NCBI GenBank assembly: GCA_021927905.1
Contig: BLLK01000027.1
Span: forward strand, 310,001 to 374,000
Direction of reading: 5' to 3'
Origin: Chaetoceros tenuissimus
Taxonomy: Eukaryota; Bacillariophyta; Thalassiosirophyceae; Chaetocerotales; Chaetocerotaceae
Length of the DNA: 64,000 nucleotides
A program made the position numbers and the translations under genes. The notes beneath the pieces were generated by a model. It was not told the origin of the DNA, did not search any database, and saw nothing but the letters and a program-made list of their open reading frames with translations. Positions 41,253 to 47,666 of the stretch are shown piece by piece (positions within the stretch are counted from its first letter, which is position 1; each line of letters opens with the position of its first letter).

Positions 41253-42929
41253 TCATGATGAAAAGACACTTGAGACATCTTGGATGAGGTGCGATGAAAT
41301 CAAATATGTAGCCCCTGTGAATAGTGCCATTGGTGGAACTACACCACCTGGAATAATTTGCTTCTCTCTGTCACTTTCATCATTGAAAATCTTACTCAAA
41401 GTCACCTTTGTATTCTCGACTATGCCAACGTCCATCTTCTCAATTTCATCAAAGATAGCATTTCTCTGAGAAAACGCAAGTACAACAGGCACGACTCCAT
41501 ATAGAAGAGGTGATCCATACGATCCAGCTACCGAGAGAGCTTGCACAAATCCATCACCTTCTGCAAAGAAAATCCCAGCTACCAGAGGTGCAGCAATTGA
41601 TAGGGCCACCGAAGGAAATGAAGCAGTTTCGTCAACGTTGACGTTTTCTTCTGAAGGTGCTTCTATCAATTCGCATTCTTTTTCGTTCTTCATTGAGTCG
41701 AAAAACACTCCAATCTCCTCAGAGATTGAAATCACACACGCTGTTGCACTCCCAAATACACTAGCAGTAGTGATTCCGGTTAGAAACATATTTCCACTTC
41801 CAGCTCCTGGCAAAGCTCCACCTCCCAAGACAGTGAAACAAAATAGGATATACATGATCATAGGAATTGCAGACCCTCCAATGATTGCCTTGGTGGATAG
41901 CTCGCGGTCATAGTTGAGTCTCTTGACTATTGTAGGCACAATATTTTGGTACACCATGGCAGTCAAAAGAACTGGCACTAAGTTTGAGATATCGTGCATA
42001 AAGATTTCTCCTCCAAATTCACTGGTTCCTTTTGCTGCAAATGTAGCCAACGGATCATGAATCATTGCAAGTCCTGGTAACACCAGGCCTGCAAAGCATG
42101 CAAATAATGTCATGCAACAGATGGACGCGATGCTCGATAAAGCAGCTCCACTTTGTGTGGATACAAGTAGTACAAAGAATGCGGCAGCAATCGATATTCC
42201 TGCTGAATCAAAGGATTGCAAAGCATTCACTATATCATTTCCAGCGATATTTTTCGAGAATTCGCTTGTGATTGCTTGGTTCGTTAATCTTCCAGCAGTC
42301 ACGAGATCATACGAAAGTACACACGTGTTGATGAATAATGATATTGCTGATATCATATTTCCAGCCAAATTACTTTGTAAATTTGCATCTGCAAACTCTT
42401 TGAATGAAGACGGAACTTCACACGATGATCCTTTGGAAGATTCATATTGGTTGATTGCAACTTCTGCAATCAGCAAACCTGATAGTAAGTTCACTAGGTA
42501 CACTGCAAAGAATATACAGCTGGAGGTGATCATCCCTGGTCCTTGAGCTAAACCAGGTAGTACCATCATAGAGGCTCCTACAGTATTTGAGGTGATTAGT
42601 AGAGCAGCAGAAACTATAGCTGCAAATTTCTTCATGTCCGTACTTTGTTCTGGCATCCAGCTCAGCAGTGGAGATTCATCATCCTCAAAGCTAGAGAAGC
42701 TATCATCTGATATCGTCGAAGCTGATAGAATGTTTTTCTTAGAACTTGAAAAATCTTTTGTGTTTGTTCTTTTGTCGTTCATCATATGTAATGTCGTCGA
42801 GCCCCTCGTTATGTCGGTTGACACCATGACTTTGAATTGACCTTGTGGTTGAACGAAGGCTGCTCCATATTCAGGGAGTGTCGAGAGTAACAGTGAAAGA
42901 ATTGAAGCGTTTATTGATAAAAGTTTCAT
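41253..42929 (-). CDS. Plastid-targeted tyrosine/tryptophan permease (HAAAP family)
   Basis: 558 residues, one exon. A signal peptide ends in GAAFVQPQ, a classic diatom plastid cleavage motif with Phe at +1. After a Ser/Asp linker, about eleven TM segments follow. The first is SAALLITSNTVGASMMVLPG (the TxGAGxLxLP half-helix of the Trp_Tyr_perm / AAAP fold), and later ones include SCIFFAVYLVNLLSGLLIAE and AMVYQNIVPTIVKRL, the conserved 'YxNIVPTI' block. Bacterial TyrP and Mtr move aromatic amino acids with protons. As the shikimate pathway runs in plastids, this carrier likely exports aromatic amino acids across a plastid membrane. The C-terminal helix ends near the last residue. Confidence 0.85.
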   Translation of the reverse strand: MKLLSINASILSLLLSTLPEYGAAFVQPQGQFKVMVSTDITRGSTTLHMMNDKRTNTKDFSSSKKNILSASTISDDSFSSFEDDESPLLSWMPEQSTDMKKFAAIVSAALLITSNTVGASMMVLPGLAQGPGMITSSCIFFAVYLVNLLSGLLIAEVAINQYESSKGSSCEVPSSFKEFADANLQSNLAGNMISAISLFINTCVLSYDLVTAGRLTNQAITSEFSKNIAGNDIVNALQSFDSAGISIAAAFFVLLVSTQSGAALSSIASICCMTLFACFAGLVLPGLAMIHDPLATFAAKGTSEFGGEIFMHDISNLVPVLLTAMVYQNIVPTIVKRLNYDRELSTKAIIGGSAIPMIMYILFCFTVLGGGALPGAGSGNMFLTGITTASVFGSATACVISISEEIGVFFDSMKNEKECELIEAPSEENVNVDETASFPSVALSIAAPLVAGIFFAEGDGFVQALSVAGSYGSPLLYGVVPVVLAFSQRNAIFDEIEKMDVGIVENTKVTLSKIFNDESDREKQIIPGGVVPPMALFTGATYLISSHLIQDVSSVFSS

Positions 42930-43772
42930 GTTGTAGAATTTTGTCGGTTTTATTGTGAAAAGCTTTTGATAGTGTCGAAAATAATAACTGTGAGTGGCAA
43001 GGTATGCACCATTTCAACTCCAACCAGGAAAAGGAAAAAGAATTGTTTGAAAAGTGGAGAATTTCCTGCCAATCCCATAGCCAATCAGAATTGTTCAAGA
43101 TATCACCCTTTTTGCCTACGTCACTTTAAAAGGCTTTTATTACGTCATAATTCATAGAAAAATAGCTATAGACAGAAATTCAAAGAATGATGAGGCATCC
43201 ATCCTCACAAAATGCATAAATCAATGGCTGGTGAAGACCCAAAACTCGCGCGAAGAATGAACACGTAAGAGGGGTCTGTATGGAAAATAGAAAACGTGTT
43301 ATGAGTTATGAAGATCAATGCAAATACAACCGATTGAAGAGCAATTCCATCGCCTACATAGGTGCTACCGGTACTACAGGTACCCTGGAGAACTGGAAAA
43401 TGATCAAGAATTCTTATGAAGACAACTGCCGGAACTTCTTGGACCAACAACAATTTGACAACTACATACTGTTTCTTCTACATACATACTACTCGTATGC
43501 TCAATTAATTCTATGTCTGTATTGTATTGGCAACACCGTTCATATATTATGTCTACAAAAGGTATTATATTTCAGTAATTACAGGCTAATCTTTATTTAC
43601 TCTGTTGTTTCAAATTGTTTGAGATTTTCAAGTTTCCTCTACATGTGTACATTCACAGGATGCATTCATAAAGGAAACTGTCATTCATCCACTTGTCAAT
43701 GTTGCTACAACTAGAAAACTTCAAAGATTCCGTTCTGTAATCTACATGTCACTTCCTCTTGAAACTTTGTCT
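42930..43772. other. Intergenic, 843 bp, including 3' UTR of the Sec-type gene
   Basis: The part next to 43772 should be the 3' UTR of the minus-strand peroxiredoxin-like gene. A 144-codon plus-strand frame at 43280-43714 is hydrophobic and Cys/Tyr-rich with no family likeness; I do not call it. Confidence 0.4.
43631..43679 (-). promoter_or_regulatory. Hairpin in 3' UTR, weak SECIS candidate
   Basis: Read on the minus strand, AGTTTCCT and AGGAAACT form a perfect 8-bp stem 94 nt after the stop codon. The loop begins TTATGA, so an AUGA stands just inside the stem, as at the base of a SECIS core. By eye I cannot build the long second helix with unpaired apical A residues that a real SECIS needs, so this is only a place to look first. 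Confidence 0.15.
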
Positions 43773-44538
43773 CTACAAAACTTGCAAAATGCTATCCATT
43801 GAGCAATTATCACCGACCTTTTCATCGTAATGTTCAAATATTAATTTGTTGCCCCTGAAAATAAAAGTTCCACCTTGTCTAAGTGTATCTTTCATTTGTT
43901 CTGGAGCCAATTTCTTGAAACCAATATTGTCCACCGCATTCTTAAATGACTCTCCAAGTTCTTTCAATGAATCTTCATCATTTCTACCCATCATTTGATC
44001 AACTGCAGGTGGGTTCCACATCGTTTTCAATCCCTGTTCCAAAGCCAATTCATCTCCAATCTTTCCGTCTTGGTCTGCAAAACAAATCGTTGCGTCAATG
44101 TTTAGATTGTCTGCAAATTCTTTTGCAGCTTCTGCAGATCCAATTCCGATGAAAAACAATTTTGTATTTCCATCTTTTTGTGCAGCTGGAAGAATTACAT
44201 CACGGAGTTGAGATGCATGCTCCCAGCATAGGAATCACCCAAAGTGTCTATTTGTAACACGCAATTGAAATAAGCGTTTTAGTCACACTCAATGAAAGTG
44301 AAGGTTCCAGAAAATACGGTCGAACATACCTTAAGAATGCACAGACTGCAGTTTCATCAGCTATTCCGAAGGGCGTGTTTTGCCTCCATTGTTTTGTCAG
44401 AACGATAGATTCACCATCTGCTGCTCTCAAAAGAGGAGTAGAATCTAGGCCATCATATATGGATGGTTTTGCTGCAATAGACGCCGAGAAGGCAGAGGAG
44501 TAGTTTACTAGAAGTAAACACAAAAGTGTTCTTATCAT
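43773..44538 (-). CDS. Plastid peroxiredoxin-like (SelU/PRXL2-type) protein with in-frame UGA (selenocysteine)
   Basis: Exons 44330-44538 and 43773-44247 (phase 2, GTATGT...ATAG, 82-nt intron) give 227 residues if the in-frame TGA at 44235-44237 is read as selenocysteine. A signal peptide ending SSAFSAS marks plastid targeting. The AhpC/TSA-like fold shows AVCAFLRHFG, then Sec74-Phe-Leu-Cys77, then WEHASQLRD and KLFFIGIGSAEAAKEFA. Relatives have CxxC at this point (FGCxxC.EH), so the UGA replaces the first redox Cys, giving UxxC as in SelU-type proteins. About 150 codons after the UGA stay open and family-like. The alternative, a nonsense mutation, is unlikely at this precise residue. A SECIS is not proven. 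Confidence 0.75.
44235..44237 (-). other. In-frame TGA, selenocysteine codon candidate
   Basis: The codon lies between GGG (Gly73) and TTC (Phe75), three residues before Cys77, at the catalytic position of the family. No alternative acceptor downstream keeps the frame: AG at 44223-44222 shifts into a frame with an early stop. Confidence 0.75.
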
Positions 44539-44756: not shown

Positions 44757-47666
44757 TCAATCCTCTTCATTTTTGACTTCAACTTTTGCATCCTCAGCAC
44801 CACTAGAACTTGGACTTTCGGAAGAAGTTGCGGTTTCAATGTCATTTTTGCCATCGTCATCATCATCTTCTTCATCATCGTAATCACTAGTCTCATCTGA
44901 GTCTCTGACTCTCATGCTACTCCAGCCGGGACAATGTTCATCTAGAATGTTAGCATGGTCATCAATCCAAACTAAGAGCTTCGTAACTTGCTCAGGAGTT
45001 AAAATTTCTTGGCATTTGGTCATTCTATCCCCAAAAAGCTTCTGTTTCTTTTGACAAATAGCCTTCAAATTTGCAATTAGTTGAAGAACTTCTTCTATGT
45101 TTTGACATAATTTTTGTATCTTTGATCTTTGTGCCAAAATTTTCCGACCTTGAGCAGGAGTGATATCCAACTCTTTTCGAAGAATACCTGAGATTGGATG
45201 GTTATTTGGATTTGTGAAAAAGGACTCTTTCTGACCCAAAGTCCAAAGAGACATTTTTGTGAAAGTAGTAGGAGCTGCTAGTTTTTCAAGTTGATTCAAA
45301 TGGAAGAAAAGCTCATCTCGACGATGCTTACCATAATCCGAATATGTCTCTGAAAATTGCGCGAGATTTCCTTTCAACTCTTTTTGCCATAACTCATTAT
45401 CGCCCTTCGCCGAAAGCATCACTAGCTCTTTCATTTTCTTTTCTTGAGCATGCCTCTCTGCTTCGAAACGAGCCTTCTTATTTCGCACCATATCGAGATG
45501 TCTCTTTAAAGTTTCGTTTTCCTCTTTCAAAAGTTTCAACTTCTCTTCGCAATCTTCTTTTGTCGGCTTCTTCTTTCGACGTACAGGGATTGGTTCTATC
45601 TTAGTCTCTATATCGCCCTGCTTCCGTTTCCGACTATCGACCGCAGATATTGCGGCCTCTGCTGTATCTTGCAATTGTTTCATGAAAACAGGTGTATCTT
45701 TGGCATCATCACGAATAAGTTGAAGCATGGATTTTGTAACAACTTCACCTGCTTCCCTTTGGGTTGCAGCAGTTGTTAAATCTTCGAGAAAATTATGTGG
45801 AAGAGAAAGTCCAAGCCTAGATGCGAGTGTTTGAAACTGGCTGACTAGATTTGTAGCCTTGGCTTGTTGACTTAAAATCTGTTGAGATGAATGGATAGGA
45901 TTGGACAAAGGCATTGCTCCTGACATAGCAGGTAAATTAGCTGTGGGATTCTGAGTGTGAGATAAAACAGGTTTCATAGCTTGTGGATGCTGATGAGTAA
46001 TATGTGGTTGTTGATGCATCGTTGGTGTCATGTAAGTAACATTGGCACCATGAGCATTGACATATTGCGCCTGTACCTGGTTTGAACTAACTGTTACACT
46101 GGGCCTTCTTGATGTCAATTGTTGCTGATGCTGTATTGCCTGTTGTTGCGGCTGTTGTACATATACTTGTTGTTGAACTATCCTTTGCTGTTGTTTAGCC
46201 ATTCCATTTGCCTGAGCTTGAACAGTTTGATTAGTTTGGACGTACTGAGTCACATACTGAGGCTGAGAAGGTGCGTGAGCAGAAGCAGCGTGTACTGGAG
46301 CATGAGTAACAGAAACTTGTGCAGAAGGAGCTTGAAGAATTGGGGCCATTGGTCTTGACTGTACATTCACTTGCTGACCCTGCTGTGGCCTGGTTTGTTG
46401 GCTCTGCATCGTCTGTTGCTGAGGCGCTACTCTCTGTTGCATCTGAACTTGTTGTTGCTGTGATTGTACTTGCTGTGGCTGAACCTGCTGTCCTTGCTGT
46501 GATTGTACTTGTTGGGGTTGCTGTGATTGTACTTGCTGTGGTTGAACCTGCTGCTGTTGCTGTACAAAGTTTTGTTGTACTTGTTGGGGTTGCTGCTGCT
46601 GAGAACTAGGTGCTTGCACTTGTGCATGCTGTCGTTGAGTAGCCTGTTGAGGAGTCACATATTGTGGCTGGTTTGCAGCTGGCGCTGCAACTGGAGTCAA
46701 ATTTTGTTGAGGCTTCGAATTCGCAGGTGCAATATTCAAATGTTGCGATTGAGAACTAGCTGCAGTATGCTGCTGTTGCTGTTGGTGTTGAGGTACATGC
46801 GAGAGTTGCGCCTGATTAGTATTTACAGTTTGTGGCTGATGAGGTGCAGAAGCTGCTTGGATATTGACGTTAACATTGGTATACGTCACAGGGGTCGGTT
46901 GTGGTTGATGTTGCCCTTGCTGAGTATAATAAGTTGTTTGAGGTTGAGTTGTCACTGTAGCTGGCATTGGAGCTATATTCACATTTCCTGCTGGATGGTG
47001 GTTCAAATTAGAATTTATGACGTGAACTTGGGCATTTGCTTGTACTGGGACAGATGTTGTATGAACCACCGTTTGTGGTTGTACATTGTGTCGGATGCCT
47101 TTGGGTTGGTATTGACTATTTTGAGATTGTACCTGTTGTACACCTTGGTTCACATGTATTGTTCGTTGTTGTGTTTGAACAGGATTTGGCTGAATTTGCT
47201 GTTGACTTTGCCGTGGCTGTATTTCGACCAAGTGTTGTTGCTGCTGCTGCTGATTCGACTGTGCACCTTGTTGAACACGAATAGGTGAAGCTTGTATATT
47301 TACTCTACCATTCTGAGACACACTGTTTACTTGCACACTTTGCTGACTCTGAATTGGAGCTGGAGCTATATTTATGTGTTGTGACTGCTGATTGTACTGC
47401 ACATTTGGCTGTTGCTGCGGAACAGTAGCGACAGGTGCTGGTGCAGGCGTAGATATCTGAGAATTCGTATTCATAGCAGAATTATTAGGTGCTTGACTGA
47501 ATGCATTGTCATCCCAATTGTAGAGATTGTTGTTTTCCATCATCATCATTTCATCATGGAAGATGGATTCAAGAAGAGCAATGTCAACTTCATTTCCATC
47601 GTGATGACTTTCAGATGACCCACCTCCTGAATGGGAGAGATCACTAGATTCTGTATTCGAATCCAT
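44757..47666 (-). CDS. Gln-rich bZIP-like transcription regulator
   Basis: 969 residues, one exon. Residues ~1-75 are acidic, ~75-545 are a Gln-rich tract with scattered V, N and P, and ~600-680 form a helical block (QFQTLASRLGLSLPHNFLED). At ~685-745 a basic cluster (SRKRKQ, VRRKKKPTK) is followed by a leucine-zipper-like coiled coil (EKLKLLKEENETLKRHLDMV). The next ~160 residues are helical and contain YSDYGKHRRDELFFHLNQLE and LTPEQVTKLLVWIDDH, recalling the DOG1/TGA-factor tail of plant bZIPs. The C-terminal 55 residues are Asp/Glu-rich. The standard NxxxxxxxR basic-region signature is not evident, so DNA binding is inferred. The Gln tract is typical of activation domains. Confidence 0.65.
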   Translation of the reverse strand: MDSNTESSDLSHSGGGSSESHHDGNEVDIALLESIFHDEMMMMENNNLYNWDDNAFSQAPNNSAMNTNSQISTPAPAPVATVPQQQPNVQYNQQSQHINIAPAPIQSQQSVQVNSVSQNGRVNIQASPIRVQQGAQSNQQQQQQHLVEIQPRQSQQQIQPNPVQTQQRTIHVNQGVQQVQSQNSQYQPKGIRHNVQPQTVVHTTSVPVQANAQVHVINSNLNHHPAGNVNIAPMPATVTTQPQTTYYTQQGQHQPQPTPVTYTNVNVNIQAASAPHQPQTVNTNQAQLSHVPQHQQQQQHTAASSQSQHLNIAPANSKPQQNLTPVAAPAANQPQYVTPQQATQRQHAQVQAPSSQQQQPQQVQQNFVQQQQQVQPQQVQSQQPQQVQSQQGQQVQPQQVQSQQQQVQMQQRVAPQQQTMQSQQTRPQQGQQVNVQSRPMAPILQAPSAQVSVTHAPVHAASAHAPSQPQYVTQYVQTNQTVQAQANGMAKQQQRIVQQQVYVQQPQQQAIQHQQQLTSRRPSVTVSSNQVQAQYVNAHGANVTYMTPTMHQQPHITHQHPQAMKPVLSHTQNPTANLPAMSGAMPLSNPIHSSQQILSQQAKATNLVSQFQTLASRLGLSLPHNFLEDLTTAATQREAGEVVTKSMLQLIRDDAKDTPVFMKQLQDTAEAAISAVDSRKRKQGDIETKIEPIPVRRKKKPTKEDCEEKLKLLKEENETLKRHLDMVRNKKARFEAERHAQEKKMKELVMLSAKGDNELWQKELKGNLAQFSETYSDYGKHRRDELFFHLNQLEKLAAPTTFTKMSLWTLGQKESFFTNPNNHPISGILRKELDITPAQGRKILAQRSKIQKLCQNIEEVLQLIANLKAICQKKQKLFGDRMTKCQEILTPEQVTKLLVWIDDHANILDEHCPGWSSMRVRDSDETSDYDDEEDDDDDGKNDIETATSSESPSSSGAEDAKVEVKNEED
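46000..47430 (-). repeat. CAG/CAA-rich low-complexity tract (poly-Gln-like)
   Basis: Codons for Gln dominate, in QQQ, VQPQQVQSQQ and similar short units. Exact tandem copies occur near 46470-46560 (QPQQVQSQQ repeated). The tract may vary in length between strains. Confidence 0.8.

Follow-up and report, generated by a model that had tools for sequence, protein, structure and literature searches.

Does the minus-strand gene described here, the reading frame of which is interrupted by a TGA codon, encode a selenoprotein that is imported into the plastid, or does the TGA codon simply terminate translation? The question is of general interest: selenium is among the trace elements that many marine algae require, and its role in the plastid is little known. 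We analysed the gene in the context of the window, that is, the entire 64-kb stretch of Chaetoceros tenuissimus DNA that contains it, and of the complete genome assembly (41 Mb, 68 contigs).

A reading frame that continues past a TGA codon

Under the standard code, the open reading frame is split at the TGA, as the earlier note had pointed out for a simple ORF view, and standard gene callers would cut the gene at this point, so mis-annotation is likely. The placement of the TGA at 44235-44237, in frame after removal of a phase-2 GT-AG intron (44329-44248), proved to be exact (Table 1). Exon 1 leaves the donor in phase 2 and exon 2 opens with ACACTTTGGG-TGA-TTCCTATGC, i.e. (R)HFG-U-FLC; the predicted spliced frame reads CAFLR/HFG-U-FLCWEHASQLRD (the slash marks the exon junction), and the product comprises 227 residues with a single in-frame UGA in the sequence FLRHFG-U-FLC.

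Table 1. Features of the selenoprotein gene predicted in the window (window coordinates)
Feature	Position	Strand	Description	Basis
Exon 1	44330..44538	-	opens with MIRTLLCLLLVNYSSAFSAS; signal-peptide-like leader MIRTLLCLLLVNYSSA/FSAS (slash, predicted cleavage) and initial portion of the domain, through ...CAFL + AG	
Predicted intron	44248..44329	-	82 nt, phase 2, GT-AG, GTATG...AATAG	sequence; intronless paralogues L011 and L012
Exon 2	43773..44247	-	UxxC motif and AhpC-TSA_2 domain; stop TAG 43775-43773	
In-frame TGA	44235..44237	-	residue 74, first position of UxxC; read as selenocysteine	
Type II SECIS-like element	43627..43684	-	ATGAC - 13-bp helix - AA - second helix and loop - AGGAAACT - TGAA	

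One alternative is that the TGA is a true stop, as the split of the frame under the standard code would suggest, in which case the locus would be a pseudogene or the source of a truncated protein of 73 residues. Against this explanation, 153 open codons separate the TGA from the terminal TAG; the earlier note had counted 157 such codons, which is to be corrected, and had called them family-like, which holds, given that the match to the AhpC-TSA_2 domain (PF13911) lies downstream of the TGA. This match (E 3.3e-13, 50.4 bits against a gathering threshold of 27, with U replaced by Cys in the query) spans residues 90-212 and so is carried by the post-TGA part of the protein alone, which indicates that the open frame is more than a product of chance. 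The same explanation also has to contend with divergent relatives that all have the TGA at the same domain column and with the SECIS-like element downstream of the gene, both of which are described below, and we consider a true stop highly improbable.

Relatives in the same genome

A search of the genome revealed three relatives that, together with the window gene, share an in-frame TGA at a single column of the domain; all four match PF13911. In L011 and L012, the respective stretches, ...VVFLRSLG-U-PFCQE... and ...VVFLRHMG-U-PYCWT..., are each encoded in one uninterrupted exon. These two proteins show 28-31% identity to the window protein, with the FLR, the G, the U and the downstream C invariant. 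The third relative, L015, contains the classical SelU motif (...VVRRPG-U-VLCREQ...). Judging by these sequences, the genome holds at least four such predicted Sec-type genes, the window gene included. The relatives were also sought in viral contigs, prokaryote genomes and plasmids, where no candidate passed and no orthologue from another species was detected.

The paralogues bear directly on the proposed splice. The TGA is located only 10 nt 3' of the acceptor, a position that invites the suggestion of an alternative splice form that removes this codon and yields a mature protein without selenocysteine. However, when exon 2 was read by eye, starting at the proposed acceptor, about 40 codons went by without an AGN codon in frame, so the same donor cannot bypass the TGA in frame within that segment. 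Furthermore, such a form would drop the FLRxxG-U-xxC stretch that is retained by two intronless paralogues; because L011 and L012 read FLRxxGUxxC without an intron, they support the splice proposed for the window gene. Removal of the TGA by splicing is thus, if anything, even less probable than a true stop.

Two additional loci in the genome encode PF13911-related proteins with plastid-like leaders in which the active-site column lacks both Cys and Sec (LGDFDSSE and YASDFNAIE in L018 and L019, respectively). The match to PF13911 is above the cut-off for L018 (C32:2634602-2634850, minus strand) and below it for L019 (C48:538327-538518, plus strand). From their sequences, these proteins may be non-catalytic relatives.

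Family assignment and the active site

When a profile built from the four relatives was compared with all solved structures, the top match was human prostamide/PGF synthase (PRXL2B, SelU3; E 3.1e-7), and in this alignment, U74 falls over Cys44 and C77 over Cys47. The claim of the earlier note that UGA takes the place of a Cys in a CxxC motif is thereby borne out, and the three paralogues agree. The AlphaFold model of the window protein, which reaches a mean pLDDT of only 54, shows a strand at residues 63-68 followed by a helix at 75-95, which would put the UxxC pair where helix 1 of a thioredoxin fold begins; a Foldseek search with this low-confidence model also returned human PGF synthase as the top match (E 3.9e-5), and VIA-align grouped the model with peroxiredoxins in general, a comparison that speaks to the fold only. 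A phmmer search of the PDB with the window sequence alone produced only spurious matches to repeat proteins, and the four-sequence profile succeeded.

Among NCBIfam models, the best one for the window protein, L011 and L012 is that of a SelL-related redox protein, NF040769 (E 4e-16 to 5e-13), which L015 does not match; the window protein scores 57.6 bits against this model, under the curated cut-off of 120 bits, which leaves it outside the family as curated. By sequence, then, the window protein belongs to the PRXL2/AhpC-TSA_2 superfamily and is of the UxxC type, and the SelU-like gene of this genome is L015. Of the original designation "SelU/PRXL2-like", the PRXL2/AhpC-TSA_2 part stands and the strict SelU part is doubtful: the closest solved structure is SelU3/PGF synthase, and the best NCBIfam model is the SelL-related one, albeit below its cut-off. 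As far as the sequence comparisons go, the name "SelU" appears too narrow for the window protein.

The SECIS-like element

The earlier note had directed the search for a SECIS to the region within ~1 kb of the stop, and a SECIS-like element with the core ATGAC/TGA indeed starts 88 nt after it. In this element, AGTTTCCTTTATG pairs with CATGTAGAGGAAACT; next come two unpaired A residues, a second stem (TGCAT/ATGTA) capped by an apical loop, and TGAA, an arrangement that corresponds to the type II SECIS consensus. A strict scan of both strands of the 64 kb detected two elements at -13 kcal/mol or lower, one of which is this element; in Markov-1 random sequence with the same dinucleotide make-up, the expectation is 0.6 elements for the two strands of 64 kb, which corresponds to ~0.0007 per 150 nt on one strand. 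The stability of the 103-nt fold compared to shuffled sequences is ordinary (z -0.08). The support for the predicted SECIS is therefore the motif and the geometry, not the free energy.

The element was further compared with the 3' UTRs of the other Sec-type genes, eight genes altogether: the window gene, L011, L012, L015, three glutathione peroxidases (GPx) and one SelT-like gene, the latter four with in-frame TGA codons in SKUGLT, SRUGAT, SEUGKT and CTSUG, respectively. All eight carry the hexamer AATGAC, with which the SECIS core begins, 39-87 nt downstream of the stop, compared to a background of 3.7% among random 100-nt stretches of the window. In seven of the eight, a helix that terminates in NGA can close the 3' UTR element, although this helix is modest in L015, L022 and L023; no good canonical SECIS fold was obtained for L012, and the helix of L022, a GPx gene, is weak or non-canonical. 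The elements could not be aligned with MAFFT for the construction of a covariance model. The Rfam SECIS_1 model had no match at the window gene or anywhere in the 41-Mb genome, a null result that is uninformative because the GPx and SelT-like genes of this genome escape the model as well. We conclude with high confidence that the window contains a real nuclear selenoprotein gene with an in-frame UGA, as indicated by the sequence evidence.

Selenocysteine machinery and a possible reaction path

Five tRNA-Sec genes score above the Rfam cut-off, and three are called with a TCA anticodon. SepSecS (E 5.6e-113) and SelD (E 1.5e-75) are present, each over its cut-off; PSTK-like and EFsec-like genes were also found, both below the cut-off, and, on the strength of these matches, both factors are likely present in the genome. 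The UGA would then be decoded as selenocysteine by Sec-tRNA(UCA), via the standard eukaryotic route, with the SECIS in the 3' UTR recruiting this tRNA through its binding protein and EFsec.

Several features of these genes deserve mention in their own right. In one tRNA-Sec-like gene (C34:1126986-1127071, plus strand), the anticodon loop is altered to CTTAAAT, and another one (C54:1808110-1808207, plus strand) contains a 12-nt insertion directly 3' of the anticodon, possibly an intron. The best SelB/EFsec-like gene (C27:954629-955489, plus strand) is located ~1.5 kb from a tRNA-Sec gene (C27:952991-953076, minus strand). SelD (C19:93680-94678, plus strand) makes up the C-terminal portion of a fusion with Ndh (Ndh-SelD) and has a Cys-type motif, GGCGAKV; this type of fusion has been described in marine metagenomes (PMC2398784).

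The product of the window gene is probably a thiol/selenol oxidoreductase or peroxidase with a UxxC redox site. In this scheme, the selenol at residue 74 would be the attacking group that reacts with the oxidised substrate, and Cys77 would be the resolving thiol for the selenenyl intermediate, by comparison with the Cys44/Cys47 CxxC pair of PGF synthase. Recycling by a thioredoxin-type donor would be likely for a plastid protein of such a fold.

Predicted location in the plastid

Diatom plastid preproteins carry a signal peptide, a Phe at position +1 after cleavage, and a basic transit peptide rich in Ser and Thr (PMC4329603). The leader of the window protein consists of a hydrophobic stretch followed by SSA/FSAS, i.e. 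an Ala-type cleavage site with Phe at +1, and the signal peptide together with this Phe would probably route the protein to the plastid. The subsequent segment is a weak transit peptide: of its first 20 residues, counted from the predicted cleavage site, 5 are S or T, 1 is basic and 2 are acidic. This composition speaks for a selenoprotein that is secreted or resides in the ER or the periplastid space rather than in the plastid stroma, an alternative that we regard as less probable than a plastid location but far more probable than the two considered above. It is opposed by the Phe at +1 behind an Ala-type cleavage site and by the nearest paralogues, L011 (VHS/FTFS) and L012 (VQS/FSVV), which have more typical Ser/Thr-rich transit peptides, also with Phe at +1. 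Going by the leader motif, a plastid location of the window protein is the favoured reading, held with reasonable but not strong confidence.

A broader proposal is that the window gene, L011 and L012 encode three divergent, plastid-imported UxxC PRXL2 selenoproteins, distinct from the SelU-like L015, that form a selenium-dependent thiol-peroxidase branch in a diatom-type plastid; we would put the chances of this being the case at about even. If true, such a plastid-imported UxxC set would tie selenium supply to photosynthetic redox control.

Relationship to known selenoproteins

The closest counterparts are the SelU/PRXL2A-C proteins, PGF synthase included, which share with the window protein the AhpC-TSA_2 domain and the GCxxC/GUxxC site and are recovered by both the profile and the fold comparisons. 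Nevertheless, the window protein is only ~20% identical to human PGF synthase and differs from SelU/PRXL2A-C in having FLRHFG in place of RRPGU and in its algal organelle-type leader. SelL is a UxxU protein, whereas the window protein is UxxC.

Selenocysteine forms of the SelU family are reported from fish, invertebrates and algae, including Thalassiosira pseudonana (PMC2375036, PMC3473315). In the former of these papers, Lobanov et al. 2007 report from T. pseudonana a pair of SelU selenoproteins and a pair of selenocysteine-containing peroxiredoxins (PMC2375036), which, going by their description, appear to be of the same Sec-containing kind as the window protein. The SelU and peroxiredoxin selenoprotein class is thus already known in diatoms, and the window gene adds a member. 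The expectation that this gene would be a neat addition to algal redox biology is thus upheld with respect to the selenoprotein itself and has to be toned down with respect to novelty.

For predicted plastid selenoproteins, there is a precedent in the two predicted chloroplast Sec-GPx of Chlamydomonas (PMC3095285), although these belong to another family and to a green alga; a chloroplast transit peptide was predicted for none of the 24 selenoproteins of Ostreococcus tauri (PMC8834552). A paper on a plastid PRXL2-type selenoprotein did not turn up in our search of the open literature, a result that does not prove absence; nor did a study of PRXL2 proteins in the chloroplast or a Chaetoceros selenoprotein paper bearing on the window gene.

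Adjacent genes

The upstream gene (44757-47666, minus strand) encodes a very Gln-rich protein of 969 residues without a Pfam match. On the other side, also on the minus strand, 41253-42929 encodes a protein of the Trp/Tyr permease family (PF03222, E 6e-25) that has a plastid-type leader, GAA/FVQP.
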